From the IMG/VR virus record IMGVR_UViG_3300042541_001054, positions 1 to 28,250 of that record: DNA of 28,250 nucleotides, one strand, 5' to 3'. Positions 1-25,550 of the stretch are shown here, one piece after another. Position 1 is the first letter of the stretch. Every line of letters begins with the position of its first letter. The stretch is from a virus. The position numbers and the translations under genes are program-made. The notes under the pieces were generated by a model. The model ran no database searches. It worked only from the letters and a program-made list of their open reading frames with translations, and had not been told where the DNA came from.

Positions 1-126
1 ACCTCGTTCTCGGCGGTGGATGCAGACATCATCGGCAAGTTGATCGCCTTGCAGCTCAAGCCATGGCAAGATGGTTTCCTGATCGTGGACGTCCAGGTGG
101 TGGTGGAAGAGGAGGTGCCGTTTTGA
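1..126 (+). CDS. 3' end of putative ssDNA-binding/annealing protein (copy A, truncated by window edge)
   Basis: The last 41 codons and the TGA stop are present, in frame from base 1. They are base-for-base identical to 15720-15845, the end of the complete gene at 15063-15845, which shows that the window starts inside another repeat of the same genome. The encoded segment is the end of an OB-fold-like C-terminal domain finishing in an acidic EEEVPF tail. A GAGGAGG Shine-Dalgarno lies inside the last codons, and the stop overlaps the TTG start of the next gene in a TTGA junction. The function is inferred from the full-length copy. Confidence 0.8.
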   Translation, partial: TSFSAVDADIIGKLIALQLKPWQDGFLIVDVQVVVEEEVPF

Positions 127-788
127 TTCGTCCCCAACCATCGGAAGTTTGGCGCTGCGGAGCGCTCGACGGCACCCAAAAATTGGTGCTGTTGGCGATT
201 CTTGACTACGGACGCATCGCCTACCCACGCCAGGCAGTGCTGGCGGCGAAGTGCGGGATCAGCCGTTCGACTTGCCAGCGCACAGTTGACTCACTACGTC
301 TAAGTGGCGTACTGACAACGACTACCCGCGGCAAGTCGCTTGTCTACCGCGTCAACCTGACAGGACAGGAGATGCCTCAATCTGACGCATCGAGAAGCAT
401 CAAATTGACGCCGGAGATGCATCAGAATGACGCTTCTATCGGCGTCAAATTGACTTCGGGATCCTATCTAGCCAATGGAACTCTCCCACCTAACCAGCAA
501 ACGGCTACCGCCGTCAGTGGGTGGGAGGTTCAAGATGAGATAGCAAACCGGATCAAGCAACGTGACCCGAGAGCGGACATCAAGAGCCACTGTTCGGTGT
601 GCCGACGTGTGTTGATCTCGTACGGCCTGAGCGACCGCGACGCAGTCGGAGCCTGGCGGCTCCTCTTGGAGCATTGGGCCCGTAGCGGCAATGACGCGTA
701 CAGCACACTTAAGTTCCACACCGAGAACCTGGGAGGCGCTCGTGACGTCGCCAAGGTTGTCTTACATCGCTTGCAGGGAGTCGCATGA
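123..788 (+). CDS. Winged-helix replication-initiator-like protein, allele A
   Basis: A 221-residue protein. Residues 17-75 form a winged helix-turn-helix; the HTH core runs from about Q37 to L64 (QAVLAAKCGISRSTCQRTV). A variable linker (about 80-130) precedes a well-conserved C-terminal domain (about 134-221) with a CSVC pair at 157-160. I choose TTG at 123 because allele B starts at the homologous residue with ATG at 16300, because GAGGAGG stands just upstream, and because the start overlaps the upstream TGA. The linker-coding DNA holds five regularly spaced near-palindromes. N-terminal DNA-binding domain, internal iterons and C-terminal partner domain follow the lambda O plan, so it probably opens the origin and recruits a host helicase or loader. 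A transcription regulator is the main alternative. Confidence 0.6.
   Translation: MIRPQPSEVWRCGALDGTQKLVLLAILDYGRIAYPRQAVLAAKCGISRSTCQRTVDSLRLSGVLTTTTRGKSLVYRVNLTGQEMPQSDASRSIKLTPEMHQNDASIGVKLTSGSYLANGTLPPNQQTATAVSGWEVQDEIANRIKQRDPRADIKSHCSVCRRVLISYGLSDRDAVGAWRLLLEHWARSGNDAYSTLKFHTENLGGARDVAKVVLHRLQGVA
351..454 (+). repeat. Iteron array inside initiator gene, candidate replication origin (allele A)
   Basis: Five 11-base elements, consensus RTCAANYTGAC, lie at 351-361, 376-386, 399-409, 421-431 and 444-454. Their centres are 25, 23, 22 and 23 bases apart, about two helical turns, so a bound protein would line up on one DNA face. TCA at positions 2-4 and TGAC at 8-11 are invariant. They sit in the part of the gene coding for the linker between the DNA-binding and C-terminal domains. 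Origin function is inferred by analogy with lambda ori within O. Confidence 0.55.
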
Positions 789-1027
789 GCCAACCACAGA
801 GCCTCGAAGATCAGATCCTCCAGCAAGTTCTTGTGATCCAAGCGCTACGCCTACGCATCGCACGCATGGAGTCGATTTACACCACACCACGAACCATCCG
901 ATCCACTGGGCAGAATGGGACAACCGAGGACACACGCCACCAGCGTGACACTATCGAGGAATACGGGCCCAGCACGCCACGTTGTGTCACGGATCAGGAA
1001 GTCGAACGCGCTGAGGATGACTCGTGA
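785..1027 (+). CDS. Small hypothetical protein (80 aa), allele A
   Basis: Not recognised. The ATG overlaps the previous stop (ATGA). The N-terminal half (about residues 5-30, LEDQILQQVLVIQALRLRI) is a short amphipathic, Leu/Ile-rich helix that could form a coiled coil. The rest is polar and probably disordered, ending in acidic residues. Allele B (16962-17207) is nearly identical except near the end, so it is under protein-level constraint. Its place just before the nuclease/terminase genes makes a small-terminase or replication-accessory role conceivable, but there is no DNA-binding motif to support it. Confidence 0.6.
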   Translation: MSQPQSLEDQILQQVLVIQALRLRIARMESIYTTPRTIRSTGQNGTTEDTRHQRDTIEEYGPSTPRCVTDQEVERAEDDS

Positions 1028-1512
1028 CCAACTCACGCATGAAGGGCAAGAACGGTGAGTTGGACGCCTGCCGTGCGCTGGAGAAGTTGTTCCCATTCAA
1101 GTGGGAACGTACTGCCCAACGCTATGGCAAAGGCAAAGCAGACATTGAAGCACAGTGCAGCTGGCAGATACACGTTGAAGTAAAACGCCGAAAGACAGGC
1201 TATTCGTACGTGTATGGGCGCTTGAAATCCGATCCACTCATTAGCAGTGGCAGCCTCTTGATATGCCGATTGAGTCGGCTCATGCAAGTCATGGACGATG
1301 GCATCTGTTTGCCCAATGTTGCACCACGTTGCGCTGGCCTTGAAGATGCCATGCTGCAAGCACGTACTGATGCAAGGGTAGGGTGGTTACCCATTGTCCT
1401 TGCCAGGCAGGATGACGAAGAGTGGCTATTAGCGTGGAGGGAAGAGGTAGATACGCGACTCATGGAAGAGGTGCGAACATGGCTAGGCGATGGCGATACG
1501 AAGGTGGTATAG
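1024..1512 (+). CDS. PD-(D/E)XK nuclease, Holliday-junction-resolvase-like, allele A
   Basis: A 162-residue protein with the compact PD-(D/E)XK layout: E12 (KGKNGELDA), D40 (GKGKADIE) and E52-x-K54 (HVEVKRR), which would bind metal and cut DNA. The family includes phage and archaeal junction resolvases and VRR-type nucleases. A role in resolving recombination or packaging intermediates is inferred from the position before HNH and TerL. The GTG start at 1024 overlaps the previous stop (GTGA); allele B has ATGA at the same place. The 3' end overlaps the HNH gene by 34 bases. Confidence 0.7.
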   Translation: MTNSRMKGKNGELDACRALEKLFPFKWERTAQRYGKGKADIEAQCSWQIHVEVKRRKTGYSYVYGRLKSDPLISSGSLLICRLSRLMQVMDDGICLPNVAPRCAGLEDAMLQARTDARVGWLPIVLARQDDEEWLLAWREEVDTRLMEEVRTWLGDGDTKVV

Positions 1513-1739
1513 GCAAACCTATCAGCATGATTAACACCATTCGCTCACGCGGTGGTACATGGACACGCATAGCCAAAGCACATAAGGCTGTGCATATGTG
1601 CTGTGCTGTATGTGGTGCAGTGGCTGACCTTGAGACAGATCACATCATTCCACTGCATCGCGGTGGCACGAATGAATGGCGAAATTTGCAGTCATTGTGC
1701 CGCACACATCACATTATCAAGACTACGGCTGAAATTTGA
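1479..1739 (+). CDS. HNH endonuclease next to terminase, allele A
   Basis: An 86-residue protein. Zinc-binding C42-x2-C45 and C74-x2-H77 frame the HNH core: D54-H55 (ETDHIIPLHRGG), N69 and the C74/H77 region. Small HNH proteins beside TerL stimulate terminase cleavage in HK97-type phages (established for HK97 gp74), so a packaging role is likelier than homing. I prefer ATG 1479 to an upstream in-frame start at 1422 because allele B also begins MARRWRYEGG. Bases 1531-1648 are identical to allele B although the neighbouring genes are diverged. Confidence 0.85.
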   Translation: MARRWRYEGGIGKPISMINTIRSRGGTWTRIAKAHKAVHMCCAVCGAVADLETDHIIPLHRGGTNEWRNLQSLCRTHHIIKTTAEI

Positions 1740-3565
1740 CCAGGCCCCGTCATAGGGCCGAGGGGCCTATACCCGCTAAGGCACCGCGGTGTGGATCCAC
1801 GAAGACAGACGCGCGTCGTAAACACCTGAAACGACCACCTTTATGCGCCGACCTAGCCGATGCCTACGCCGAGTCGATCGCCAGCGGCAGCGCCGTCGCC
1901 AATCTGCGAATCGTCGACTCATGCAAGCGCTACTTAGCCGAGCGCAAAGCGCCGGCGGCGCACCAGGTGTGGTGGGACGAGCCACGCGCCGAGGACGCCC
2001 GAGCGTTCGCCCGCAAGTGTGGCCAGGGCGTGGAAGAGGACGCCGGCAAACCACTGGAGTGGATGCCGTGGCAGTGCATGGTGGCAATGATCCTGCTCGC
2101 TCGCCGACGCGTGATCGCCAAGGTGAAGACCGACACGCCGGCGACCAAGGCGCTGCTGCTGGTGGTGGCGCGCGGCAACGGGAAGACCGAGTTCGCGGCA
2201 TCGATGATCATGGCAGCGATGCGCGACACCAGCACTAGCCTGGAGTTCTCAAGCGTGGCGCCGGATGGGCGCTTGGCGCAGAAGACCTTTGAGCGGATGC
2301 AGACCATGTGCCGCACACTGGCCCTAGATGACACGGACAAAGACGATAAGGGATGGACGTCCTCAGGTGGCTCGACGCCGGCGCATCCCGGCAGAGTGCG
2401 CCACGGTGGCAACCGGTACATCTCTTTGCCATGCACCGACCGTGCGCTTGACGGATTGACCACGCGCTTGATCGTCGCGGACGAGACAGCGCGCATGGAC
2501 AAGGCGTTCGGGCGCTTGCTCACCGGCCTTGCCAAGTTCGCTACCTCGCAACTGTTGGCGATCACCACGCCCGATCCGGAGCAGAAGACGCGCCCGATTT
2601 GGGGCTACTGGCAAGCGTGCGAGGCTGCAATCGCTGACGGAACGCCCTATCCGGCGGGCTGGTGGCCCATGATTTACGGTCTAGATGCCGACGATCAAGC
2701 CTCAGATCCTGCCGTATGGGCGAAGGCGCACCCAGGTTTGGGCGTCATTGTTGACCCAACGCAGTTGCAACTGGCCGCGCAGACGATGCTAAACACGGGT
2801 GATCCCGTGCAGATTGCCGAGTTTGAAACGCAGTTGGCGTGCAGATACCACGAGATTGCCACGACTGACATTGATCTTGCAGTGCTTGAGCGGCAAATGG
2901 TGGACTGCGATTGGGATCGCTTGCGCGGCGCGCCAGCGGTCATCGGTCTTGACTTGAGCCGCGGTGGTTATGGAAGTCAACTTGACTTGACGGCGCTCAC
3001 CATCATGGTGGTCGATGGCGGCATCATTCGTGCGCGAAACGTGTGCTGGTGGGCGGGTACGGACATCGCGCTCGACGAAAAGCGCTGCAAAAACCCGCTA
3101 CAGGTGTGGATTGAGGCCGGACATCTGCGCCGAATGCCTGGTGAATGGCAGGATATGAGCATTGTGGAGGCTGAAATTGAGCACTTAATGACGCTTTACG
3201 ACGTGCGAAAGATCGGCGTAGACCCGCATCCAGCGCAAGCGCGAGACATAAAGCGATGGCAGGATCGCGGCTGGCCCATCATTCCGGTCGATCAGAGCAT
3301 CCGAACGATGGCGCCGGCATGGAAACTGTGGGGCGACCTATTGAAGTCCAAGCAACTTTGCTACCAAATCGATCCGGTACTCGCGTCGGGACTAAACAAC
3401 GTGCGCCTAATCCGCGACAACGTCGGCAACACGCGACCAGTGAAGGGACGCAGCGCGGGCAACATGGACGTCATCGTGTCCGGCAACATGGCAGCGCTTC
3501 TCATGGAACATCACCAGGTGCGCGAGTCGACCGGACTCAGCACCAGCGCTTGTCCGATTGGTTGA
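1736..3565 (+). CDS. terL: Terminase large subunit, allele A
   Basis: A 609-residue packaging motor and nuclease. The N-terminal ATPase shows Walker A VARGNGKT at 144-151 and Walker B LIVADE at 245-250 (catalytic E250), with a coupling ITTPD motif near 276-280. The C-terminal RNase-H-like nuclease has candidate acidic residues D406 (GLDLSRGG), D496 (IGVDPHP) and D578 (NMDVIVSGN). Length and motif order fit the Terminase_1-type family that works with HK97-type portals. It starts with TTG overlapping the HNH stop (TTGA), conserved in allele B, which suggests translational coupling. No small terminase subunit is recognisable nearby. Bases 2556-2679 are identical to allele B within otherwise diverged sequence. 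Confidence 0.93.
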   Translation: MTRPRHRAEGPIPAKAPRCGSTKTDARRKHLKRPPLCADLADAYAESIASGSAVANLRIVDSCKRYLAERKAPAAHQVWWDEPRAEDARAFARKCGQGVEEDAGKPLEWMPWQCMVAMILLARRRVIAKVKTDTPATKALLLVVARGNGKTEFAASMIMAAMRDTSTSLEFSSVAPDGRLAQKTFERMQTMCRTLALDDTDKDDKGWTSSGGSTPAHPGRVRHGGNRYISLPCTDRALDGLTTRLIVADETARMDKAFGRLLTGLAKFATSQLLAITTPDPEQKTRPIWGYWQACEAAIADGTPYPAGWWPMIYGLDADDQASDPAVWAKAHPGLGVIVDPTQLQLAAQTMLNTGDPVQIAEFETQLACRYHEIATTDIDLAVLERQMVDCDWDRLRGAPAVIGLDLSRGGYGSQLDLTALTIMVVDGGIIRARNVCWWAGTDIALDEKRCKNPLQVWIEAGHLRRMPGEWQDMSIVEAEIEHLMTLYDVRKIGVDPHPAQARDIKRWQDRGWPIIPVDQSIRTMAPAWKLWGDLLKSKQLCYQIDPVLASGLNNVRLIRDNVGNTRPVKGRSAGNMDVIVSGNMAALLMEHHQVRESTGLSTSACPIG

Positions 3566-3714: not shown

Positions 3715-3745
3715 TGTATTTAGATGCGAGGTCTGAAATAATCGC

Positions 3746-3774
3746 TTGACACGCTGAGGCACATTTGTTCCATG
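3746..3774 (+). promoter_or_regulatory. Possible promoter for the structural operon (copy A)
   Basis: TTGACA at 3746-3751 is a perfect sigma-70 -35 hexamer. The region 17 bases downstream (TCCATG) is a poor -10. The stretch from GTCTGAAATAATCGC to the portal start is conserved in copy B, where the rest of this gap is missing, which argues for function. CTGAG (3754) and CTCAG (3778) form a small inverted repeat reaching the GTG start. Upstream, 3715-3745 holds nothing else I recognise. Confidence 0.35.
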
Positions 3775-3781
3775 CATCTCA

Positions 3782-4942
3782 GTGAGCATCTTCGCACGAT
3801 TCTTCGGGTTCAAAAGCGGCGTAGTTGTCTATGCACGCCCGGAACCACTGGCAACGCCAGCGCCACAGCATTTACCCGCTGTCGTTCGTGCCATGAATCT
3901 CATCAGCACCGACTTGGCGCGGCTTCCGTTCTCGATCATTGACTCACAGGGCCAGGTTGTCGATTCGCCGATCACGCAATTGATGACGCGGGAAGCCTCG
4001 CGCTGGCAGTCGGGCTTTGAGTTCAGACGCTATTTGACTACGTGCGCGCTTGATTCGGGCAACGGTTTGGCACTCATTCGCCGCGATTCGTCGGGCACCG
4101 TCGCCGAATTGCAACCACTTCCGAGCGGAACGTCCACGGTTGAACTGACCGAAGAGGGTGTTCAGTACCGCTTGGGCGGGAATCTCCTCAAGGCAGACCA
4201 GGTGCTACACCTCGGCTGCTATCCGGATCCGCTGTCGCCGAGTTGGTATATGTCGCCGATGGACGCTTGCAAGTTCGCCATGGAACTGGCAGCAGACCAG
4301 GACGCGGCCCACAAGAGCCTGATCCGCACCGGCAGCACCGGCAAGGTTTCGATCTCTCACCCGGGCGCGATGTCCGATCAAACGGTTCAAGCCATCCGCG
4401 ACGCCTGGCAAACCATGCACGCAACCGCGGAGGGTGCATCGCGCCCGTTGATCCTGCGCGAGGGCATGAAGGCTGAGCGCATCAGCGCTGAATCAACCAC
4501 CACAAGTTTGGAGTCGCGCCGGTTCTCAATCCAAGAGATCGCCCGCGCATTCGGCGTACCGCCCGAAATGCTCTACCAGCAGGGCGGCGGGGCGCTGTCC
4601 TCACAATCAGAAACCGCACGCGCCTACGTTGACGGCGCGCTAGCCCAATGGGTGACAGCGTGGGAATCGGAGATCACGCGAAAACTCTGCGGGCCCGGCG
4701 AACACGCAAGGCTCGATACCGACGTCCTGCTCCGCGGCAATATGCGAGATGCCGGCATGGCGCTGTCGAAACTTGTCCTCGCCGGGATCCTCTCACCGAA
4801 CGACGGGCGCAAGCGAATGGGCCTCCCGCCTATTCAGGGCGAACAGTTCGACATTCCAAGTGTGTCCATGCCAGGCGGAATGAGCGCCATGCAAGGCGAC
4901 GGCGCCACGGAAAACATCGATGGAGGTGAAGACATTGCTTGA
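3782..4942 (+). CDS. Portal protein, HK97 family (copy A)
   Basis: A 386-residue portal forming the dodecameric DNA channel at the capsid vertex. Family hallmarks include an N-terminal AVVRAMNLISTDLARLPF helix (about 34-51), a central wing and clip, and the FSIQEIARAFGVPPEMLYQ motif (about 248-266) before a C-terminal helical region. It starts with GTG. There is no good Shine-Dalgarno, and the ATG ten bases upstream is out of frame. The first 66 codons differ from copy B at 12 sites, all synonymous; after base 3980 the two copies are identical. Confidence 0.93.
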   Translation: MSIFARFFGFKSGVVVYARPEPLATPAPQHLPAVVRAMNLISTDLARLPFSIIDSQGQVVDSPITQLMTREASRWQSGFEFRRYLTTCALDSGNGLALIRRDSSGTVAELQPLPSGTSTVELTEEGVQYRLGGNLLKADQVLHLGCYPDPLSPSWYMSPMDACKFAMELAADQDAAHKSLIRTGSTGKVSISHPGAMSDQTVQAIRDAWQTMHATAEGASRPLILREGMKAERISAESTTTSLESRRFSIQEIARAFGVPPEMLYQQGGGALSSQSETARAYVDGALAQWVTAWESEITRKLCGPGEHARLDTDVLLRGNMRDAGMALSKLVLAGILSPNDGRKRMGLPPIQGEQFDIPSVSMPGGMSAMQGDGATENIDGGEDIA

Positions 4943-5456
4943 AATCCGTACCGCCAAGATCAGTATGCAAGGCGACAAGATCGGCGGCTACGCCAGCGTC
5001 TACGACGCTCCGAGCCACCCGCTCACCGTGCGTGGCATCAACGGTGGCAAGCCATTTACTGAGAAGGTCGCCCGCGGCGCGTTCGACAACTCGCTCCGCT
5101 CCAACATCTCGCTGCTTGTCGGTCATGATTCGCGCGACCTCTTGGCAAATACCAAGAGCGGGCTGCTCCAGCTGAACAGCGACGCGCACGGTTTGGCGTT
5201 CGAAGTAACGCTCCCCGACACGCAGCGAGCAAAAGATATCCGAGCACTCGTGGACGCCAACGTCCTGAGCGAGATGTCATTCGGCTTCAACGTGATCTCA
5301 GATTCTTGGAGCGGCAACACACGCACACTCACCCAGGTGAGGCTATTGGAAGTCTCAATCGTAGAAAACGGCGCCTATCCGCAGACGAGCGCCGAAGCAC
5401 GACATCTTTCCTCGGGCTTAGCCCGTCTTCGTCTGCGTCTAAGGATGCCGCTATGA
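4935..5456 (+). CDS. HK97-type prohead protease (copy A)
   Basis: A serine protease (S78/U35 family) that trims capsid scaffolding during maturation. From the TTG start, the catalytic candidates are H64 (LLVGHDSR), S115 (LSEMSFGF) and E139 (LLEVSIVENGAY), the spacing seen in HK97 gp4. I prefer TTG 4935 because GGAGGTGA at 4922-4929 gives ideal spacing. An in-frame ATG at 4920 would add five residues but has no ribosome-binding site. It overlaps the portal end by 8 bases, and its stop overlaps the capsid ATG (ATGA). Confidence 0.9.
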   Translation: MLEIRTAKISMQGDKIGGYASVYDAPSHPLTVRGINGGKPFTEKVARGAFDNSLRSNISLLVGHDSRDLLANTKSGLLQLNSDAHGLAFEVTLPDTQRAKDIRALVDANVLSEMSFGFNVISDSWSGNTRTLTQVRLLEVSIVENGAYPQTSAEARHLSSGLARLRLRLRMPL

Positions 5457-6724
5457 AACTGTCCGAACTCTTTGAAAGCCGTAAGGCGCTCACCGCTGAG
5501 CGCGATTCCATTCTCGCACAAGATTCCCTCACCGTCGAGATCGAAGCTCGCGGCCATGAAGTCGCAAACGAACTCGCAACCGTTGAAGCCGAGATCCGTT
5601 CCGCGCAAATGCGCGAGCGTTTCGCTTCCTCAAGCGCCGTCGAGATCATCGCCAAGCGCGATATGGAACTCGGACGCGAAGAGCGCGACACCAAGAAGTA
5701 CCGCGACCAGTTCATCGGTTGGCTCAAGGGTGGCGCTGCACCTGAAGTGCGCGCACTAACGACCGCAACCACTCCCGCAACCGTTGCTGGCACCATCATG
5801 GTGCCTGCCGTTTACGAGACAGAGATTCTGAAGTTCCTCGATAGCCAAGATTTCATGCGTTCGTTGGCTGATTATCGCGGTGGAGTCACTGGCTACCCAT
5901 CGCTCCGTTACAACACGCAGACCAGCGCGGCCTACGGTGGCGGCACCGGTTCGTGGATCGCGGAAGGTGGCAACGCCGTTGTGAACGACATGGCACTCGC
6001 TGAGGTGCTCTTGCCGCCACGACTCTGCTCACCGACCACGCAAGTTTCGCAGACGCTCTTGCGCCAAGCGAATTTTGACGTGGAAGCCGAAGTCATGATG
6101 GATCTTCAGAAGAAGATTTCCAAGAATCAGGCCTTCGGGTTCATCGGAGGTATCGGTGGCACAGCGATGCCAACGGGCATCTTCGATCCTGCAACCACAA
6201 CTACTGGCGTTCGCACTGGTGCAACGGTTGGAGCAGGTAACACGCGAGCATTGAAGGTGACTGCTGCAACTTCAGACGCTGCCGTGACCATTGCGAACCT
6301 GACCAAGATGCGTTACGACATCTTGCCAGCGGCTTACTGGAATAGTCCGACCTGCGCCTGGATCATTCCGCAAGACGTTTACGCAGCGATCGCTGGCATT
6401 CTTGTAAACAATGTGCCGCTGTTTGTCCCTTCTGCTGATGCTGGCATCAGGAATGCAGCACCATTTACGCTCATGGGCCTCCCGGTCTACGTAACTCCGT
6501 ATGTCCCGGCTCTTATCACAACTTCGGCAGCGAAGACCGTGATGGCAGTGGTTGGAGACATCCGAGAGTCCTACAGTATTCGGGAGTGGGCAGGCATCGG
6601 CATGATCCGCGACGACATCACGCTGGCGACCACTGGCCAAGTGAAGTACACCGCGATGTCGTTCGCCAACGCGAACATCACCCGCGGCGATGCGCTCGTT
6701 CAACTGCGCGTCACCAACGTCTGA
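5453..6724 (+). CDS. Major capsid protein, HK97 fold (copy A)
   Basis: A 423-residue protein. Residues 1 to about 58 are a charged coiled coil (MKLSELFESRKALTAERDSI), the delta/scaffold domain that the upstream protease removes. After a linker (about 60-105) the HK97 core begins near TPATVAGTIMVPAVYETEI. The core carries SWIAEGG, an E-loop/A-domain pattern and a C-terminal region ending RGDALVQLRVTNV. ATG 5453 has AAGGA upstream and overlaps the protease stop. The long in-frame upstream extension to 5306 lies inside the protease gene and is rejected. Confidence 0.93.
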   Translation: MKLSELFESRKALTAERDSILAQDSLTVEIEARGHEVANELATVEAEIRSAQMRERFASSSAVEIIAKRDMELGREERDTKKYRDQFIGWLKGGAAPEVRALTTATTPATVAGTIMVPAVYETEILKFLDSQDFMRSLADYRGGVTGYPSLRYNTQTSAAYGGGTGSWIAEGGNAVVNDMALAEVLLPPRLCSPTTQVSQTLLRQANFDVEAEVMMDLQKKISKNQAFGFIGGIGGTAMPTGIFDPATTTTGVRTGATVGAGNTRALKVTAATSDAAVTIANLTKMRYDILPAAYWNSPTCAWIIPQDVYAAIAGILVNNVPLFVPSADAGIRNAAPFTLMGLPVYVTPYVPALITTSAAKTVMAVVGDIRESYSIREWAGIGMIRDDITLATTGQVKYTAMSFANANITRGDALVQLRVTNV

Positions 6725-6743
6725 TTCTGATCCTCTCATCCTT

Positions 6744-6775
6744 TAGGTGGGTGGGGCTTCGGCCCCACCTACCTA
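6744..6775 (+). terminator. 14-bp hairpin with TTCG tetraloop after capsid gene (copy A)
   Basis: TAGGTGGGTGGGGC (6744-6757), loop TTCG (6758-6761) and GCCCCACCTACCTA (6762-6775) form a 14-bp stem with one G-U pair and a very stable UUCG loop. No T-run follows, so it is not a classic intrinsic terminator. It lies in the only sizeable gap between capsid and connector genes. It may cap or stabilise the 3' end of capsid mRNA or lower downstream expression. Confidence 0.7.
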
Positions 6776-6787
6776 CAGCGAGGAACA

Positions 6788-7291
6788 ATGGCTTTAGACA
6801 TTGCAAAGTTCCGCAGTTGGGCCCGCATTCCTCACACGGAGGATGACCCGGCTATTGGCATTGCATGGGCAGCAGCCGTACGCGAACTGGAAGAGCGAAC
6901 CGGGTGGTGCGTGGAGTCGGTCACTAGGACGCAGTGGGTGCCCGCAGCGCCCTTGACGATTTACCGCGGTCTGTACCTCCGTTTGGAGCGCCAAGGCGAT
7001 CTGGCAGGAACTACGGTCACCTACAGCGATAGCGCGACGGTGCCGCTCACCGGCACGTGCTCAAAGATCCAAATCAATGGCCTGATCTACGTCGATATGG
7101 ACATCGACAATCTGACCTACCCAGTGACGCTGACCGTAACAGCAGGTAACGCGGCGCTCAATCCACTGCTAGAGATGGCGTTACTCCAGCGCGTGGCACA
7201 CCATGTGGCAAGCCGTGGCGATGACACCATCGCGCTCGACTCGACCTACTGGGACAGGGTGACATCAATGATGGGCAAAGGAATAGCGTAA
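6788..7291 (+). CDS. Head-tail connector, HK97 gp6-like (copy A)
   Basis: A 167-residue adaptor that binds the portal ring. The N-terminal region matches the family pattern: short helix FRSWARIP, acidic EDDPAIGIAWAAAVRELEERTG (about 19-40), then beta strands, and a C-terminal helix with LLEMALLQRVAHHV. The ATG is preceded by GAGGAA just after the hairpin. It is the first of four connector/completion genes in the standard siphovirus order. Confidence 0.8.
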   Translation: MALDIAKFRSWARIPHTEDDPAIGIAWAAAVRELEERTGWCVESVTRTQWVPAAPLTIYRGLYLRLERQGDLAGTTVTYSDSATVPLTGTCSKIQINGLIYVDMDIDNLTYPVTLTVTAGNAALNPLLEMALLQRVAHHVASRGDDTIALDSTYWDRVTSMMGKGIA

Positions 7292-7636
7292 GTGGCTGGG
7301 CACGTCCCATCCGGAATGCTGAGGCTTTCGATGACGGTACAGAATCCCGTGCGAACCGTCGACAGCGTCGGACAAGCCACTGTGGCATGGTTGAGTGTCG
7401 CTCAGATTGCTTGCCACATTGACTCAGCACGAACGAACGAAGTTGTAGACGATCTCGGCGTCAACACCCGCTCCGACTGGCGCATCCTGGCCGCCTGGCA
7501 TCCTGCCGTGACCACGAACAGCCGATTGCTTTACTTGGACAACGGCACCGAGCGCGTGTTCAACGTCCGCGCTTGCTTTGACCGTGACCAGAAGCGCCGA
7601 CGCTTGGAGATGGAAGCCACGGAGGTAACCGAATGA
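7292..7636 (+). CDS. Head-tail joining/stopper protein, SPP1 gp16-like (copy A)
   Basis: A 114-residue small beta-barrel protein of the head-completion type (Phage_H_T_join). It has AGHVPSGMLRLSMTVQNPV at the start, the VGQATVAWLSVAQIACHI strand pair and the closing FNVRACFDRDQKRRRLEM segment. It plugs the connector after packaging. GTG immediately follows the previous TAA, with AAAGGA upstream. It overlaps the next gene by ATGA. Confidence 0.8.
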   Translation: MAGHVPSGMLRLSMTVQNPVRTVDSVGQATVAWLSVAQIACHIDSARTNEVVDDLGVNTRSDWRILAAWHPAVTTNSRLLYLDNGTERVFNVRACFDRDQKRRRLEMEATEVTE

Positions 7637-8331
7637 CGGCTACCAAGATCACGATGAAGACGCAGTTTGTAGACGGCAATGTCCGCAAGGCGCTTGCACG
7701 TCTTGGGCCCAAGGTTGCAGAGAACGTCATGAAGCGCTCAATGCGCAAAGCATTGCAGCCAGTGCGCACCGCGCTGACTCGGACTTGGTTGTCTGCGAGT
7801 TACCGTGGATACCCATGGAGCCGCCAAGACATTGCCAACGCAACTATGGTCGACGTACGCCGAGCTGGCGGTAAAGCCTCTTCAGGAGTTGCAGGGCGCG
7901 TAGGCGTCATGTACGGCAAAAAGGCGGGCAACTCCAGTGGCCGCCAAAAGATTTGGCACTTGCTTGAAGGTGGATTTCGGCACTACGCCAAGGGATCCAA
8001 GGCGTACGCAAACTTCAGCAAGGACGCCAAGGCAGAGCAAGTGAACTACAAGGCGATCATCGCCGCCAAGCGCCCAGCGGCACTAACTGGGCCACGATCA
8101 GAGCGCGCCGGGAAACTCCGCGCCGTCTTCGCCGCAGCACGCGAGGCAGCGCCTACGTTCGTCGCAGAGCGCTCCGGACGCACTGAACAGCGAAAGACCG
8201 CCACAGCGAAGCAGATCCCCGGGGCGTGGCGTTCTCGGGCCGTGGCGTCGCAAATGATTCCACAGGTGACAAAGAACCTACGCGACTACATCCTCCAAGC
8301 GTGCAAGGAGGCTTTACGTGCCGGTAAGTAG
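7633..8331 (+). CDS. HK97 gp10-like tail/neck protein (copy A)
   Basis: A 232-residue basic protein. Its N-terminus (VRKALARLGPKVAENVMKRSMRKALQ pattern, about 17-42) and the KIWHLLEGGFRHYAKGSK segment (about 115-132) fit the HK97 gp10 family of neck/tail-completion proteins. The C-terminal half is an Ala/Arg/Lys-rich helical extension, longer than the usual 130-150 residues. The ATG overlaps the preceding stop; the 3' end overlaps the next gene by 14 bases. Confidence 0.75.
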   Translation: MTATKITMKTQFVDGNVRKALARLGPKVAENVMKRSMRKALQPVRTALTRTWLSASYRGYPWSRQDIANATMVDVRRAGGKASSGVAGRVGVMYGKKAGNSSGRQKIWHLLEGGFRHYAKGSKAYANFSKDAKAEQVNYKAIIAAKRPAALTGPRSERAGKLRAVFAAAREAAPTFVAERSGRTEQRKTATAKQIPGAWRSRAVASQMIPQVTKNLRDYILQACKEALRAGK

Positions 8332-8728
8332 ATCGCTCGAAAACATCACGAAAGCGCTGTACTCGTATTTGACTGGAGAGCTGACAAGAGCGGAACTCTC
8401 GCCGCGCTGGCGTCGCCAGGGTGATCCGCTCCCTTACGTTGTTTACGAGTTTACCTCGGCCGCGTGGGTACAGACCACGAGCGAAGTCACCAACATGGTG
8501 ACCTTGTCGGTGAACTTCTCTTGCGTCGGTGCAACCGTAGCCGACTCCCTTGAGGTAGCGGATGAGATCACCGCAGCCTTTTACCAAACGGTTCTGGAAA
8601 ACAGGATCACGTTTCAGATGGTTGATATCAACATGAGAACCTTGGACGCTGTACCTGATGACGGTACCGGCGATGCCGAACGAATTATCGTAGTTACCAC
8701 AACATTCCTTACCCACGACGAAAGTTAA
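8318..8728 (+). CDS. Tail terminator/completion protein, DUF3168-like (copy A)
   Basis: A 136-residue protein. The N-terminal helix ENITKALYSYL, then PLPYVVYEF, a strand region VTLSVNFSCVG and SLEVADEITAAFYQTVL fit the tail-terminator family, which caps the tail tube and joins it to the neck. GTG at 8318 with a perfect AAGGAGG at 8305-8311 fixes the start inside the previous gene. Confidence 0.75.
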   Translation: MPVSRSLENITKALYSYLTGELTRAELSPRWRRQGDPLPYVVYEFTSAAWVQTTSEVTNMVTLSVNFSCVGATVADSLEVADEITAAFYQTVLENRITFQMVDINMRTLDAVPDDGTGDAERIIVVTTTFLTHDES

Positions 8729-8731
8729 ACG

Positions 8732-9109
8732 ATGCCAACGACATACACAGCGGGCTACGGCGGGACACTCACGATTAACTCGGTAACTATTCCGGTACAG
8801 AACGTGACGATTGACCTATCGCGCCAAGAGATTGACATCACCACCACGCTTGACCTCACCACGCTGGCAATGGCTGGCCGTGTTACGCGCAAAATCACTT
8901 GCACGGCAATGGCAACAATCGCCGCGGAAACGGCGCTCACGCTGCTAATCAATACCGCAACGGACACCAAGACCGTGGTGGGATGGACAGATGGCAACTC
9001 GGGCACGTCGTACAGCATCACGTGCATGTTGAACAGTGCCAGCCGTTCGTACGACGGGCAGGGCGCGGCGACTATCAACTTCAGTTTCTCGGAAGCGAAG
9101 CCAGCCTAA
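8732..9109 (+). CDS. Major tail (tube) protein (copy A)
   Basis: A 125-residue, almost all-beta protein: Thr/Ile-rich strands such as GGTLTINSVTIPVQNVTIDL, a central VTRKITCTAMATI strand and a closing GAATINFSFSEAKPA. Size, fold and position between tail terminator and tape measure mark it as the tube subunit, at the small end of the family. Its stop overlaps the next start (TAATG). Confidence 0.75.
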   Translation: MPTTYTAGYGGTLTINSVTIPVQNVTIDLSRQEIDITTTLDLTTLAMAGRVTRKITCTAMATIAAETALTLLINTATDTKTVVGWTDGNSGTSYSITCMLNSASRSYDGQGAATINFSFSEAKPA

Positions 9110-9381
9110 TGCCAATTGGAACCGAATATCTAGGCGACGGCTGGCGCGATGCCGACATCGAAGGACTGCCTCCACTCCAGGTGCGCCGGCCAGTGATGCG
9201 CGACATTGCCGGCGGCGGCCAGTACTGGTGGATTGCTTGCGTGCGTTGCGCCGACGGTACGCCGTTGCTTGCTGAAGGCGTAGCCGCTGCCGATCTACGC
9301 GTGGAAGTCGGTAACGCCATCATCGCGGAGGTAATGAAAGAGCGCCCTATTCAAGCGCCGAAAGGCGCATCTGGAGGATGA
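9109..9381 (+). CDS. Putative tail assembly chaperone, first gene (copy A)
   Basis: A 90-residue protein between tail tube and tape measure, the place of lambda gpG-type chaperones. Visible: an acidic N-terminus (GTEYLGDGWRDADIEGLPPL), a YWWIACVRCADG strand and a C-terminal helix. No domain match is certain. The next ORF lies in the -1 frame and overlaps its stop (ATGA), as expected of a G/T pair, but I found no canonical slippery heptamer. The long upstream in-frame extension to 8899 lies inside the tube gene and is rejected. Confidence 0.6.
   Translation: MPIGTEYLGDGWRDADIEGLPPLQVRRPVMRDIAGGGQYWWIACVRCADGTPLLAEGVAAADLRVEVGNAIIAEVMKERPIQAPKGASGG
9355..9368 (+). promoter_or_regulatory. GNRA-loop hairpin before the 48-aa ORF (copy A)
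   Basis: GCGCC-GAAA-GGCGC is a perfect 5-bp stem with a GAAA tetraloop, ending nine bases before the ATG at 9378. GGAGG lies between hairpin and start. It may tune translational coupling or pause ribosomes for frameshifting. Confidence 0.45.
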
Positions 9382-9524
9382 CTCCAGCAGCCCGAATGGA
9401 TATGCCAGTCGGGCTGATGAGTGAGGCGACGCCGGAAGAACGGATTGAAAGTCTGCTTATAACGATTGCTTGCGCGCTCACAAGCGCACCACCTCACAGG
9501 ATTGCACCATGGCTAATGACTTAA
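9378..9524 (+). CDS. Small ORF (48 aa), possible second tail-chaperone segment (copy A)
   Basis: MTPAARMDMPVGLMSEATP begins a 48-residue ORF overlapping the previous stop (ATGA), with GGAGG upstream and its end 16 bases inside the tape-measure gene. It fits the chain of overlaps exactly and bridges an otherwise empty 127 bases. Content: PEERIESLL helix and a hydrophobic LLITIACAL stretch. It is in the -1 frame relative to the upstream gene, like lambda T relative to G. Function is not established. Confidence 0.5.
   Translation: MTPAARMDMPVGLMSEATPEERIESLLITIACALTSAPPHRIAPWLMT
9388..9416 (+). promoter_or_regulatory. Inverted repeat just after the 48-aa ORF start (copy A)
   Basis: CAGCCCGA (9388-9395) and TCGGGCTG (9409-9416) give an 8-bp stem with a 13-base loop, starting ten bases after the ATG. 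Together with the GNRA hairpin it brackets the start site. Confidence 0.45.
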
Positions 9525-10135
9525 AGGCATCGGTAAGCATCACAGCGGATACGAGCGGACTGATCTCCGGCGTGAATGGTGCCATGGAAAAGATCAACCG
9601 CATCAGCGCCAGTAGCACTGCCATGGCTGGCATGATGGGCGCACAGAAGGTGCTGCAACTTGCTCAGCAAATGTACACGGCTATTTCGGATCGCTCTGAG
9701 CATCTATCGAAACTTGCGCACACGTTCTCGCCTGAAGCGATGACGAGCGCCGCCAATCTTTCACAGGCTCAATTGCGATCGGATATGGCGGTCGGTCAAG
9801 CCATGGGCCCGGCACAGGCGGGCATTGACCGAGCCAAGCAGGACGCCATAGCCGAAGAGACTGCCAGCACTCTTCAGAACGCAAAGCAAATCGGCGAAGG
9901 GATGATCGTCCTCAACGCCATTTGGAACCAAACGAAACTTATCGCCACGGAAAGCGCCGACGCCACACTTATGGCGCTCGGTTCATTGAATCAGATGCCG
10001 GAGATGGCGGCAGCCGCTGTTGCAAACCCAGTCGAAACTGCGACCGGATCAATACTCGGCGTAAGCGCTGGGCCGCTCCTGCAAGCCATTGGCAGCACAC
10101 TTGAAGCCATGTTCGCAAAGGTAAAGGGAGACTAA
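9509..10135 (+). CDS. Tape-measure-like protein, very short (copy A)
   Basis: A 208-residue, almost wholly helical, Ala/Met-rich protein. The N-terminus (ASVSITADTSGLISGVNGAM) is the usual tape-measure opening, followed by MEKINRISASSTAMAGMMGA and long heptad-like helices. Position after tube and chaperone-like genes agrees. Most tape measures exceed 600 residues. At about 1.5 angstrom per residue this one implies a tail near 30 nm. I choose ATG 9509; the upstream extension to 9470 has no ribosome-binding site. Confidence 0.65.
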   Translation: MANDLKASVSITADTSGLISGVNGAMEKINRISASSTAMAGMMGAQKVLQLAQQMYTAISDRSEHLSKLAHTFSPEAMTSAANLSQAQLRSDMAVGQAMGPAQAGIDRAKQDAIAEETASTLQNAKQIGEGMIVLNAIWNQTKLIATESADATLMALGSLNQMPEMAAAAVANPVETATGSILGVSAGPLLQAIGSTLEAMFAKVKGD

Positions 10136-11148
10136 TGGGAGCGCTCAAGATCGTTAAACACGCCAGTGGCCCACAGTACAAGGTGCAAAGCCCCGGGCAA
10201 CCGTTCACCATGACGGAGCATTACGTTGTTTCGTGGGTACCAACGAGCCCGGAAGACGTTCAATCTTGCCCGGAAGATATTGCGATCATCGTCGCTGCAT
10301 CAGAAACTGGCGCGGGCGGCTTGAAGATCCCGAAGGTACAAGAGCGGTACGTCGGTTGCGACGCCAACGCATCGTTCCTCGTCTGCGAATCGGTCGATTG
10401 GCGCGTTATGCCAGGTGCGCTGAAGACTTGGATGGTTACCGCGAACTGGTCAAGCCTGATGGAGTTTGTGTACAACGCCACACTCCCCGAGCCATGGACG
10501 CGCATTACGCGCACCAGTTCTATGAGGCAGATGCCCATATGGCGAATCGATGCCGCGATACCTACTGGGGCTTACACATACCCGCCAACAACTGCTGCGG
10601 GCGACATCGGCGGAACAAAGGTAGATATTGGTGGACAGCCTGCAAATCGGTTTGTACAGCAGATGCAAATCATTTGCGAGTTCTACTACGACCGTACGTT
10701 CACGCTTGGGCCCGATGACGAGATTGCCGCAGAGCCTGGCCCATTCTTCAGCGGCTGGCTCGGCACGCGCAATTCGGAAGAGTTCCTCGGCTATGACCCG
10801 GGGCAGATCCTTTGCAACGGCATCAGCATCTCGCCAGTGAACGATCAGATTTACATTATGCAGTTCAAGTTCTTGTTTGATTGGCTGTCGTTCTTTGAGC
10901 AGCGCCCAGCACCAAACACTGGTGGCGCGTCATTCCTTGCCGCGGCGGCTACCAATTTTCTTGGAGTTCCATACAGACAGTCCAGCTTGGTTTCGTGGTA
11001 CCAACCGTACCCGGATCTTGAGGATCTGAAACTCATGTTCCCGGCGGCTGTGTACGACGCGTTCCTGACCGCATTGCCAGCCGTCAACACGTGCGCCACA
11101 CCGGGACGCAGTCTCGCCGATCGTCAATTCGATTTCCCTGCTTCATGA
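10135..11148 (+). CDS. Putative distal-tail/baseplate structural protein (copy A)
   Basis: A 337-residue protein, not recognised at family level. It is rich in Trp, Tyr and Pro, with mixed strands, an MPIWRIDAAIP segment (about 131-141), a DIGGTKVDIGG turn (about 156-166) and a helix-poor C-terminus. It directly follows the tape measure (TAATG overlap, GGGAG upstream), where distal-tail or hub proteins normally sit, so a tail-tip role is inferred from position only. Confidence 0.6.
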   Translation: MGALKIVKHASGPQYKVQSPGQPFTMTEHYVVSWVPTSPEDVQSCPEDIAIIVAASETGAGGLKIPKVQERYVGCDANASFLVCESVDWRVMPGALKTWMVTANWSSLMEFVYNATLPEPWTRITRTSSMRQMPIWRIDAAIPTGAYTYPPTTAAGDIGGTKVDIGGQPANRFVQQMQIICEFYYDRTFTLGPDDEIAAEPGPFFSGWLGTRNSEEFLGYDPGQILCNGISISPVNDQIYIMQFKFLFDWLSFFEQRPAPNTGGASFLAAAATNFLGVPYRQSSLVSWYQPYPDLEDLKLMFPAAVYDAFLTALPAVNTCATPGRSLADRQFDFPAS

Positions 11149-11663
11149 GTAACCAGCGTCCAATCTTCAACAACGGTCTGTACGGGAAAGCCAACCGTAC
11201 GGTTATGAACGCATTCATGGACTCAGCGGACACGATCGCCGCAAATCAGGGCGCTATTGAGTGGGCGTACCGCGCATCGATGCCAGAGCCGTTTGCCACG
11301 CGCACGTTCCTTGCACGTATCCAAACTGCGACGGTCATTACTGCAAATTGCAGATGGTCTTACGCGGGCACCGAGGCCGTGCTACTGTCCGCTTCGCCTT
11401 GGCATGAGATTGTGACAGGCAGTAATTACGATTTTGCGGGCGCACTCAACCTACGCGAGTTGTTTAACACGAGCGGCACGGACATTGACGGTATGGACAT
11501 TTCAAGCCCGGCGTCTACTGTCGGACCAGTTGGATCGGCTTACGTGAGCGGAGCATGGGGCACCACTGGCCTCGAAGCGCTTGTAGTCATGACAATGAGT
11601 TACACGAAAACGGGCGCAGTGTCGTATTACTTCGATCGACCTAATCCAATCAGGTGCACCTAA
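11145..11663 (+). CDS. Putative minor tail protein (copy A)
   Basis: A 172-residue protein beginning MSNQRPIFNNGLYGKANRTV at the ATGA overlap. An N-terminal helical part (about 15-45) is followed by beta-rich, Thr/Ser/Gly-rich sequence ending SYYFDRPNPIRCT. No family recognised. Context (tail-tip cluster) suggests a minor tail or baseplate component. The apparent N-terminal extension from 11091 lies within the previous gene. Confidence 0.6.
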   Translation: MSNQRPIFNNGLYGKANRTVMNAFMDSADTIAANQGAIEWAYRASMPEPFATRTFLARIQTATVITANCRWSYAGTEAVLLSASPWHEIVTGSNYDFAGALNLRELFNTSGTDIDGMDISSPASTVGPVGSAYVSGAWGTTGLEALVVMTMSYTKTGAVSYYFDRPNPIRCT

Positions 11664-12010
11664 TGGCCAACCTCACGCTCGTTACTCCAATTCCGCCACA
11701 AGTCATCTGCAAGGGTGAAGTATTCGCAATCTCGATGCACGTCCACGATGACGGCTCAAACTTCAACTGGACGAACTTCACGCCCGTCGGCAAGATCACC
11801 GTCGGCACGATCACCATTGCAGCTAGCACCGCGACGGTCATTAACGCTGGCGGCGGAACGGCCACCGTGTCCTGGACTGTGGCGCAGACGCTGACCGTAG
11901 ACGCCAATTCGTGGGGCACCATCGTCCTTTACGCAGACCCGACATCCGGCAGCGAAAATCGGCACATCGCGACCATCTTCGCACGCATAACAGCAGAAAG
12001 CATTCCGTAA
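11663..12010 (+). CDS. Small beta-rich tail protein (copy A)
   Basis: A 115-residue protein starting MANLTLVTPIPPQVICKGEV at a TAATG overlap. It reads as one Ig-like or BppU-N-like beta sandwich: strands with FAISMHVHDDG, a FNWTNFTPVGKITVG turn and WGTIVLYADP. Lying just before the adhesin, it may anchor that protein to the tail tip; this is inference. Confidence 0.55.
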   Translation: MANLTLVTPIPPQVICKGEVFAISMHVHDDGSNFNWTNFTPVGKITVGTITIAASTATVINAGGGTATVSWTVAQTLTVDANSWGTIVLYADPTSGSENRHIATIFARITAESIP

Positions 12011-14961: not shown

Positions 14962-15066
14962 ATGGAACTTTTCTACGTAGTAATTGGTTGTTTCGCTGCT
15001 GGTGTGTTTATGCTGATGCTGCTTGACCCGTCGCACGAATCGTGCAAGCCGGAGGTCAAGCGATGA
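14962..15066 (+). CDS. Tiny membrane protein (34 aa)
   Basis: MELFYVVIGCFAAGVFMLML followed by LDPSHESCKPEVKR: a single N-terminal transmembrane segment (about 3-21) and a short polar tail. AGAGGA stands upstream, and the stop overlaps the next start (ATGA), which supports real translation. It could be a lysis or host-membrane protein, or a leader peptide coupling expression of the next gene. Confidence 0.45.
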   Translation: MELFYVVIGCFAAGVFMLMLLDPSHESCKPEVKR

Positions 15067-15845
15067 ACGAACTAACTGCCACGGATGGCATCAACCCGGG
15101 CGCTATCGTCAAGCGCAACGAGGAAGTGTGCCGCATCGTCGGGCCCATCGTCCGCGCCAAGTACACGCAAGTAATTCAGGGCCGCAACTACCTCACCGTG
15201 CAGGGCGCCCAGGCGATCGCCTCATCGCTCGGCTACACCTCAGGCACTGCCAGCGTTCGCCACGTCGACCCGACGGAAAGCGTGGCTGGATACTGGGAAG
15301 CGACCTGCACGGTGATGTTGAATGGCGTCGTAGTGGGCTCGGGCATTGGCTCGGTCTTCGACGACGAGCGCCCGTGGAATACGCGTCCGCAGTTCGCCAG
15401 GCAAATGATGGCGCAGACCCGCGCTACCGGTCGGGCGCTTAAGGGCGTGATGGGGTGGGCGTTTGCAGCGCTCGACTACGAGGGCAGCATCGCTGAGGAA
15501 ATGCCGGAGGAAGCCACGAGGATGCCTCAGGACGCGCCCGCGCCTCGCAAGGCACTCGCTGCGCCCTCAAAGGCGTCGAGGCCGGCTCAAGTCAAGCCTG
15601 AGCCTAAAGGCGACCGCCTCCAAGTACGCGGCGTTTGTGTCGGAGTTGATCCAAAGACGGCAAAATCGGGAAAGGAATACTGGCGCGTAGGGCTCGAAGC
15701 CAACGGCGTCGAGTGGTTTACCTCGTTCTCGGCGGTGGATGCAGACATCATCGGCAAGTTGATCGCCTTGCAGCTCAAGCCATGGCAAGATGGTTTCCTG
15801 ATCGTGGACGTCCAGGTGGTGGTGGAAGAGGAGGTGCCGTTTTGA
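15063..15845 (+). CDS. Putative ssDNA-binding/annealing protein
   Basis: A 260-residue protein in two parts. Residues 1 to about 147 carry a conserved block: IVGPIVRAKYTQVIQGRNYL, DDERPWNTRPQFARQMMAQT and RATGRALKGVMGWAFAALDY ending EEMP. The Q-T-R-A-x-G-R-A-L motif recalls phage single-strand annealing and ssDNA-binding proteins. An Ala/Pro linker (148-184) leads to an OB-fold-like domain (185-255, DRLQVRGVCVGVD ... KEYWRVGLEA) and an acidic tail, as in SSBs. It probably coats or anneals DNA during replication. No family assignment is certain. The next gene starts on its stop codon (TTGA). Confidence 0.55.
   Translation: MNELTATDGINPGAIVKRNEEVCRIVGPIVRAKYTQVIQGRNYLTVQGAQAIASSLGYTSGTASVRHVDPTESVAGYWEATCTVMLNGVVVGSGIGSVFDDERPWNTRPQFARQMMAQTRATGRALKGVMGWAFAALDYEGSIAEEMPEEATRMPQDAPAPRKALAAPSKASRPAQVKPEPKGDRLQVRGVCVGVDPKTAKSGKEYWRVGLEANGVEWFTSFSAVDADIIGKLIALQLKPWQDGFLIVDVQVVVEEEVPF
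15720..15845 (+). repeat. 126-bp exact repeat of window bases 1-126
   Basis: The last 126 bases of the ssDNA-binding-like gene are identical at 1-126 and 15720-15845, an offset of 15719. After the shared TTTTGA the copies part: allele A goes straight into the initiator gene, allele B into an extra nuclease gene. Confidence 0.95.
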
Positions 15846-16303
15846 ACATGCAACTTCGCGGCAATGGACATTGGACAGCGCTAAGGGGCCAAAGATCTGA
15901 AGCGGTGGTCGCGCAGTATTTCCGGAACCGGAAATTGGAGGTCGTTGAGCAAGGGCACGAGCGGTTGAATCATGACCTGCTAGTTGAAACCTTTGGGCGC
16001 GTCCAGGTGAAGACTTGTCACATGATCGATCGGAAGGAATCCGGTCGCAAGAGTTGGCTTCCGACTTCCAAACGACTTCGATGCAATTTGTGTGCGTCTG
16101 ATCGGCGTTACGCCACTGGCGTAATCGATTGGTTTGCGTTCGTTTACTACCAAAGCGACAGCCCAAGAGTTTGGCTTGTACCGGAATCGAAACTGCGGGC
16201 GAATGAGGAATACCTCATCAGCGGTTATTCAATCGCCCTTAACTCCGCTCGTGCTTGTTGGGAATCGGTCGACCTAACCCCAACACTTTTGGAGGCCGTA
16301 TGA
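15842..16303 (+). CDS. PD-(D/E)XK homing-endonuclease-like gene (copy B only)
   Basis: A 153-residue protein from TTG (151 from ATG 15848). Motif: E20 (LRGQRSEAVVA), D45 (LNHDLLVE) and Q55-x-K57 (RVQVKTCHM). This is the Q-x-K variant seen in I-Ssp6803I-type intron endonucleases (PDDEXK_11-like), followed by GVIDWFAFVYY and VWLVPESK, also typical. I prefer TTG 15842: it overlaps the upstream stop exactly as the initiator start does in copy A and keeps the same GAGGAGG spacing. Its end carries a new GGAGG and an ATGA overlap for the initiator. It is probably a free-standing mobile nuclease; a junction resolvase is the alternative. Confidence 0.65.
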   Translation: MNMQLRGNGHWTALRGQRSEAVVAQYFRNRKLEVVEQGHERLNHDLLVETFGRVQVKTCHMIDRKESGRKSWLPTSKRLRCNLCASDRRYATGVIDWFAFVYYQSDSPRVWLVPESKLRANEEYLISGYSIALNSARACWESVDLTPTLLEAV

Positions 16304-16965
16304 CCCGTCCTCAACCATCGGAAGTTTGGCGCTGCGGAGCTCTTGACGGCACCCAAAAATTGGTGCTGTTGGCCATTCTTGACTACGGACGCCTGGCGTA
16401 CCCTCGCCAGGCAGTGCTGGCAGCGAAGTGCGGCATTAGCAAATCGACTTGCCAGCGCACTGTTGACGGACTACGCGCAAGTGGCGTCTTGACAACGACT
16501 ACCAAGGGCAAGGCGCTTTCCTATCGCGTCAACTTGACAGGGCAGGAGATACCTCAATCTGACGTTTCACGAAACGTCAATCTGACGTCGGAGAAGAGTC
16601 AATTTGACGTTTCTAGCGAAGTCAAATTGACGTCGGGATCCTATCTAGCCAAGTTAACTAGTCCACCTAACCAGGGAAACGCTACCGCGTTCAACGGGTG
16701 GGAGGTTCAAGATGACATGGCAAACCGGATCAAGCAACGTGACCCGAGAGCGGACATCAAGAGCCACTGTTCGGTATGCCGGCGCGTACTCATCTCGCAC
16801 GGTCTGAGCGACCGTGACGCACTCGGAGCCTGGCGCTTGCTCTTGGAGCATTGGGCCCGTAGCGGCAACGACGCATACTCGACATTGAAGTTCCACACAG
16901 AGAACCTGGGAGGCGCACGTGACGTCGCCAAGGTTGTCTTACACCGATTGCAGGGAGTCGCATGA
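16300..16965 (+). CDS. Winged-helix replication-initiator-like protein, allele B
   Basis: 221 residues, the same length as allele A. The winged helix (17-75) and C-terminal domain (about 134-221) are nearly unchanged, while the linker (about 82-133) has many substitutions (for example QSDVSRNVNLTSEKSQFDVS). The ATG overlaps the nuclease stop, with GGAGG eight bases upstream. Conserved ends around a variable middle that still keeps its DNA sites argue that the protein recognises those sites and that the linker itself is tolerant. Confidence 0.6.
   Translation: MTRPQPSEVWRCGALDGTQKLVLLAILDYGRLAYPRQAVLAAKCGISKSTCQRTVDGLRASGVLTTTTKGKALSYRVNLTGQEIPQSDVSRNVNLTSEKSQFDVSSEVKLTSGSYLAKLTSPPNQGNATAFNGWEVQDDMANRIKQRDPRADIKSHCSVCRRVLISHGLSDRDALGAWRLLLEHWARSGNDAYSTLKFHTENLGGARDVAKVVLHRLQGVA
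16528..16631 (+). repeat. Iteron array inside initiator gene, candidate origin (allele B)
   Basis: Elements at 16528-16538, 16553-16563, 16576-16586, 16598-16608 and 16621-16631. Three are perfect 11-base hyphenated palindromes (GTCAACTTGAC, GTCAATTTGAC, GTCAAATTGAC). Centre spacing is 25, 23, 22 and 23, identical to allele A although the bases between them differ. The downstream TATCTAGCCAAGTTAACTAG stretch is somewhat AT-rich and could be the unwinding element. Confidence 0.6.
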
Positions 16966-19748: not shown

Positions 19749-19771
19749 GGTGGCAAGTCTGAAATAATCGC

Positions 19772-19800
19772 TTGACATCCTGAGGCACATTCGTTCCATG
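19772..19800 (+). promoter_or_regulatory. Possible promoter for the structural operon (copy B)
   Basis: TTGACA at 19772-19777 with a weak -10 region, in a 59-base gap (19749-19807). GTCTGAAATAATCGCTTGAC and the following GAGGCACATT are shared with copy A. In this strain nothing resembling the phased repeats lies upstream, so the promoter would have to work without them. Confidence 0.35.
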
Positions 19801-19807
19801 CATCTCA

Positions 19808-22750: not shown

Positions 22751-22769
22751 TTCTGATCCTCTCATCCTT

Positions 22770-22801
22770 TAGGTGGGTGGGGCTTCGGCCCCACCTACCT
22801 A
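22770..22801 (+). terminator. 14-bp hairpin with TTCG tetraloop after capsid gene (copy B)
   Basis: Same stem-loop as 6744-6775, without a trailing T-run. Confidence 0.7.
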
Positions 22802-22813
22802 CAGCGAGGAACA

Positions 22814-24754: not shown

Positions 24755-24757
24755 ACG

Positions 24758-25407: not shown

Positions 25408-25550
25408 CTCCAGCAGCCCGAATGGATATGCCAGTCGGGCTGATGAGTGAGGCGACGCCGGAAGAACGGATTGAAAGTCTGCTTATAACGATTGCTTGCG
25501 CGCTCACAAGCGCACCACCTCACAGGATTGCACCATGGCTAATGACTTAA
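25404..25550 (+). CDS. Small ORF (48 aa), possible second tail-chaperone segment (copy B)
   Basis: Identical to 9378-9524, in the -1 frame relative to its neighbour. The inverted repeat CAGCCCGA/TCGGGCTG recurs at 25414-25442. Confidence 0.5.
   Translation: MTPAARMDMPVGLMSEATPEERIESLLITIACALTSAPPHRIAPWLMT

Follow-up and report, generated by a model that had tools for sequence, protein, structure and literature searches.

The window analysed here is the whole of a 28,250-bp viral contig from the IMG/VR collection, which contains about 1.8 copies of a tailed-phage genome of about 16 kb. The structural region is near-identical between the copies (3731-12224 and 19757-28250, at 99.8%), and the early regions have diverged (129-3563 and the second copy, 84%). 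Related contigs were found to be single units of 15.8-16.4 kb, several of which end in identical 127-bp terminal repeats. Therefore, the record probably joins two co-occurring strains in assembly, and the two initiator alleles, A and B, are probably the versions of those strains. The phage family is uncultured and tailed, with a tiny genome (~16,000 bases) whose gene order comprises an early gene of unassigned function, the initiator, a small open reading frame (ORF), a resolvase-like nuclease, an HNH nuclease, the large terminase (TerL), portal, protease, capsid, connectors and tail. At 1736-3565 of the window, the HNH gene is followed directly by the TerL gene. A gene with weak PD-(D/E)XK nuclease similarity (15846-16303) is located just upstream of initiator B and is absent upstream of initiator A. 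The small ORF followed the initiator in every lineage checked (the window, L080, L083, L085, L092 and L139), and in several distant lineages its end is a GGGxDxRGLxGDP-like motif. No Pfam or PHROG match was obtained for the small ORF of allele A, which could be a partner of the initiator. The features of the initiator region are listed in Table 1.

Table 1 Features of the initiator region in the window, with positions counted from its first letter.
Feature	Position	Strand	Remarks
Initiator gene, allele A	123..788	+	TTG start overlaps the stop of the upstream gene; open frame
Iteron array A	348..457	+	Five 17-bp sites: 348-364, 373-389, 396-412, 418-434, 441-457
Putative unwinding stretch A	458..500	+	G-poor, A/C-rich, low duplex stability, CTAAC motif
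Short inverted repeat A	501..514	+	ACGGC TACC GCCGT
Segment encoding the C-terminal helical domain (conserved), allele A	515..785	+	
Small ORF, 80 aa	785..1027	+	Overlaps the end of initiator A; open frame; candidate partner
Early gene upstream of the initiator	15042..15845	+	Conserved; matches phrog_19042 only (no function assigned)
Initiator gene, allele B	16300..16965	+	ATG start; 86% protein identity to A
Iteron array B	16525..16634	+	Five 17-bp sites starting at 16525, 16550, 16573, 16595, 16618
Putative unwinding stretch B	16635..16677	+	
Short inverted repeat B	16678..16691	+	AACGC TACC GCGTT; both arms changed relative to A

The probable initiator gene and its internal iteron array

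The product of initiator A matched Pfam HTH_36 (2.8e-07) and PHROG families of replication initiation or O-like proteins (best 2.6e-08), and such families were matched by all the homologues scanned (21/21). The matches to phrog_391, phrog_678 and phrog_270 were confined to residues 5-135. AlphaFold2 predicted a winged helix (residues 1-79) and a helical domain (131-220) joined by a disordered stretch (80-130); when predicted alone, the helical domain had a mean pLDDT of 91.6. The disordered stretch coincides with the site-encoding part of the gene, so the predicted layout agrees with the initial annotation, in which the sites were placed between a winged helix and a conserved C-terminal domain. 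Structural matches assigned the DNA-binding domain to a generic MarR/ArsR-like winged-helix fold; the N-terminal domain of DnaD was among them, and weak PHROG matches to DnaD-like loaders were also obtained. The C-terminal domain alone gave no PHROG match in three lineages up to E = 1, and neither a Foldseek search nor a second look yielded a clear counterpart in the PDB, the highest Z (6.2) being to a designed protein.

The motif TCANNNTGAC occurs in allele A at 352, 377, 400, 422 and 445 and in allele B at 16529, 16554, 16577, 16599 and 16622. These start positions bear out the five sites per allele with a shared spacing of 25/23/22/23 that had been described, and TCA and TGAC are indeed kept at 10 of the 10 sites. 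On both strands of the whole window, TCANNNTGAC was matched 22 times against 3.5 expected, with a maximum of 9 in 100 dinucleotide shuffles. The consensus originally proposed, RTCAANYTGAC, is strongly enriched as well (13 matches against 0.24 expected) but slightly too strict, being exact at only three of the five A sites and four of the five B sites; site 2 starts with CTCAA in both alleles, and site 4 of A reads ATCAGAATGAC. Three B sites (16528, 16598 and 16621) are perfect 11-bp palindromes, as had been reported, and so is one A site (444). One more perfect site stands by itself at 2976, within the terminase gene of copy A and without a counterpart in copy B. A 17-bp 6-5-6 palindrome is a better description of the functional unit than an 11-bp element.

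As a control for chance and coding constraint, synonymous codons were permuted within each gene with the protein kept (60 shuffles per gene). For 19 of the 21 genes to which an array had been assigned, no shuffle came up to the observed array score (0/60 each), and the result for arrays A and B was 0/60. The two class IV genes escaped the automatic search for palindromes, because in each of their sites a single half had switched. The conservation might alternatively follow from codon bias or from a peptide repeat, and the linker does have recurring V-N/K-L-T and Q-x-D-x-S stretches. Against this, a single gene presents the DNA motif in two or three reading frames and hence as different peptides, so that no single repeated peptide explains the sites. 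Furthermore, codon shuffles fail to give arrays, homologues change DNA and peptide together with palindromes and spacing kept, and the linker is predicted to be disordered. A peptide or codon origin of the pattern is hardly credible; the repeated peptide had been named in the initial annotation as a possible refutation. Conservation of the sites relative to synonymous positions was weak for classes I and II together (P 0.09-0.22) and stronger for class II (0.013) and for classes III and IV (0.008); being weak in the window's own clade, it does not serve as the main evidence.

The 36-43 bp after the last site were G-poor, and in most lineages the least stable 40-bp stretch of the gene coincided with the last site or adjoined it, with an AT content of only 35-53% over 60 bp downstream. 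The inverted repeat has a stem of 5-6 bp and a loop of 3-4 nt. Its stem was perfect and in a fixed register in 34 of 34 sequences of classes I-IV, which carry three different stem sequences, and paired non-synonymous changes were observed on both arms (T..V / N..F / S..L). Across ten lineages, the stem covariation was 0.73 compared with 0.17 after shuffling, with two-sided changes in five of six pairs; since these ten were chosen for their hairpins, the fixed-register count is the fairer test. Within single genes, the hairpin was not significant.

The generic fold would also suit a transcription regulator, with the sites acting as operators that repress its own gene or operon. However, the sites are located well within the coding region, about 225-330 bp in, and not at a promoter, the PHROG matches are to initiators, and an origin would better account for four or five palindromes in even phase with a low-stability stretch behind them. 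A regulatory role is thus judged very unlikely. The array could also serve in partition, as a centromere to which a winged-helix adaptor binds, as archaeal plasmid centromere-binding winged helices were among the weak structural matches. This is highly improbable, given that the genome yielded no ParA-like ATPase match and that the gene context is one of recombination, nuclease and packaging.

Site classes and their co-variation with the predicted recognition helix

Viral scans recovered homologues down to about 40% protein identity, and these carried 3-5 palindromes at the same place in the gene. About 12 site classes were distinguished, which share a common geometry of 17-bp 6-5-6 palindromes with 22-23 bp between starts and hence a half-site about every 11 bp. 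The half-sites were lineage-specific, including CGTC, TGCGCC in class III, TGTGAC on one side in class IV, TGCGCA in classes V and VI, TGCGTC in class VII, TACCTC in class VIII, TACGYC in class IX, GAGGCA in class X, GGTGTC in class XI and others. Relatives near the window had TCA...TGA at nearly all sites, and the centre was changed clade-wide to AGA in class II. In L094, TGCGCACCACGTGCGCA occurs four times without any difference between the copies. The isolated Rhodococcus phage Tonitrus represents class XII, with four CGTCCC sites further along its gene (gp63). The sites lay within the coding region in all lineages. Homologues lacking the sites had been named in the initial annotation as a second possible refutation, and this objection failed: in distant relatives without TCA...TGAC, another palindrome occupies the same places, and all copies have switched together.

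The widest viral scan by alignment gave no new lineage, the final scan added class XI, and a search of genome contigs for host or prophage copies gave no relatives. In an INPHARED tblastn search, the window protein matched only Vibrio phage p42 (26%) and L094 matched none. An Azospirillum plasmid match (L149) was dropped because its best array was elsewhere in the gene and was equalled by codon shuffles. The Vibrio, Microcystis and Sphingopyxis relatives failed the array test and were used for gene context only. The initiator-type genes of the Vibrio and Sphingopyxis phages are related to that of the window through the winged helix, and the neighbours of these distant relatives include a DnaC/IstB-type ATPase gene in Vibrio phage p42 and a DnaB helicase gene in the Sphingopyxis phage. 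The initiator-like gene of Vibrio phage p42 (L145 3983-4777) contains two GGTC...GACC palindromes mid-gene, and the ATPase gene follows it.

The gene context also bears on whether the protein is instead the small terminase subunit and the array a packaging recognition site, comparable to phages with pac or cosB in or near that gene. Small terminases are also helix-turn-helix proteins, and the gene is located upstream of the HNH nuclease and large terminase genes. Since the genome yielded no recognisable small terminase gene, this assignment keeps a low probability. It is nevertheless unlikely, since the homologues uniformly match replication-initiation profiles with no small terminase among the families matched, the winged-helix-related genes of the Vibrio and Sphingopyxis phages adjoin loader and helicase genes, and three genes lie between the initiator and the large terminase gene.

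The association of the protein with its sites was analysed over 59 variable winged-helix columns in 13 class representatives. The best-scoring alignment column was column 55 for half-site position 3 and column 56 for position 6, both of which are in the predicted recognition helix. At position 3, Q was paired with C, R with G, and K or A with T; at position 6, Arg was paired with C and Asn or Met with A. The helix was the top 12-column window of 68, and none of 5000 permuted pairings reached the observed score (p < 1/5000). Well-supported branches of the tree force three independent occurrences of the change at position 6, and the sisters L092 and L094 have opposite states at this position. 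Between classes III and IV, whose winged helices share 86-87% DNA identity, the start of the recognition helix changed from GR to NK and all four sites changed on one side. A residue-base code at the recognition helix is put forward as a proposal and not as a result, because the association emerged post hoc from a small number of classes.

Between winB and L034, the DNA identity was 60% in the winged helix and 91% in the C-terminal domain. Such a conserved C-terminal domain next to a divergent winged helix and sites points to exchange of the winged helix and its sites as one cassette. Judged from these sequence comparisons, the DNA sites and the DNA-reading helix seem to have diverged in step, giving about a dozen matched lock-and-key versions.

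Probable origin function and relation to known initiators

Very probably, the locus is a self-contained replication module of the phage that functions in the manner of lambda O, with the origin inside the initiator gene. This reading of the initial annotation stands as regards the way of working, for which the PHROG matches, the layout, the concerted switching of sites and the co-variation argue, and membership in the O family is not claimed. As the searches found neither a C-terminal domain of the O type nor a loader gene next to the initiator, the protein is classified as lambda-O-like in its working and not as a member. In line with the reported lack of a helicase, primase or polymerase gene, the scanned genes gave no Pfam or PHROG match to any of these or to a loader; host replication may therefore be hijacked, though a loader may have gone unrecognised. 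GC skew did not point to the locus; after detrending, its extremes were 12-14 kb and about 3.5 kb away from the initiator. A raw cumulative minimum near the initiator in five complete genomes was rejected as a product of net drift.

We infer that the initiator binds the iterons, dimerises, promotes unwinding and recruits the replisome. The winged-helix domain would bind the 17-bp palindromic iterons in the linker-encoding part of its own gene, probably as a dimer, for which the palindromic form of the sites and the helix-site co-variation speak only indirectly. The half-sites are about 11 bp apart, which is close to one helical turn, so that several dimers could line up on the same face of the DNA and wrap it. 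The adjacent G-poor, low-stability stretch would open next, with the host replication machinery brought in by the helical C-terminal domain, either directly or via an unrecognised partner. Because reader and target adjoin in one gene, specificity could shift by cassette exchange, or by mutation of the recognition helix with concerted replacement of all iterons.

Lambda O has an N-terminal DNA-binding domain, a flexible linker encoding four inverted-repeat iterons and a C-terminal interaction domain, and a strand-asymmetric stretch adjoining the iterons opens in ori-lambda (PMC6022878, PMC5043065, PMC4488673). The present module resembles this arrangement in its DNA-binding domain, the iterons in the linker part of the gene and the presence of a C-terminal domain, and may also do so in the adjacent putative opening stretch. 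It differs in having 3-5 copies of a 17-bp repeat, whereas the lambda repeats are 18-19 bp, in the C-terminal domain, which has no recognisable similarity to O families, and in that no P-like loader gene was found. The downstream stretch is moderately AT-rich, less so than the AT-rich region of lambda, and the genome is only about 16 kb.

In the account of Furth and Yates 1978 cited in PMC6022878, the lambdoid specificity types (lambda, phi80 and 82) have related initiators with matched or altered iterons, and Stx-phage origins have near-identical iterons that differ in number, 4 versus 6 (PMC7466680). The likeness to these origins consists in related initiators with matched or altered iterons; in contrast to the Stx-phage origins, about 12 sequence classes occur here within one gene family. 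In the PLE satellites of Vibrio cholerae, the DNA-binding domain of RepA_N and the iterons co-vary, the C-terminal domain is conserved and the module has been swapped repeatedly (PMC8263062). As with PLE RepA_N and its origin, the pair here appears to be exchanged as a module against a conserved C-terminal domain. However, PLEs have RepA_N proteins and an intergenic origin, whereas here the origin is inside the initiator gene, so that one crossover carries both. DnaD-type helicase loaders have a winged-helix N-terminal domain in common with the initiator, whose C-terminal domain, in contrast, is without a clear PDB match.

A more far-reaching version, which we hold only tentatively and consider rather doubtful, is that of a new initiator lineage. 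Its new helical C-terminal domain would recruit the host helicase without a phage loader, and the gene would carry its own origin in a single exchangeable initiator-origin cassette, with a dozen or more mutually exclusive pairs and an approximately readable residue-to-base code. It would also involve a functionally required DNA hairpin, and diversification would be driven by competition or by origin-targeting parasites.

In one compact gene, the family offers a natural collection of initiators matched to their origins, and the target base appears to be set by one or two residues of the recognition helix. With such pairs, the evolution of replication specificity becomes testable with short DNA and small proteins. 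The arrangement suggests how 16-kb phages may start replication with a single recognised gene, and how an origin embedded in its initiator can move between genomes as one module.
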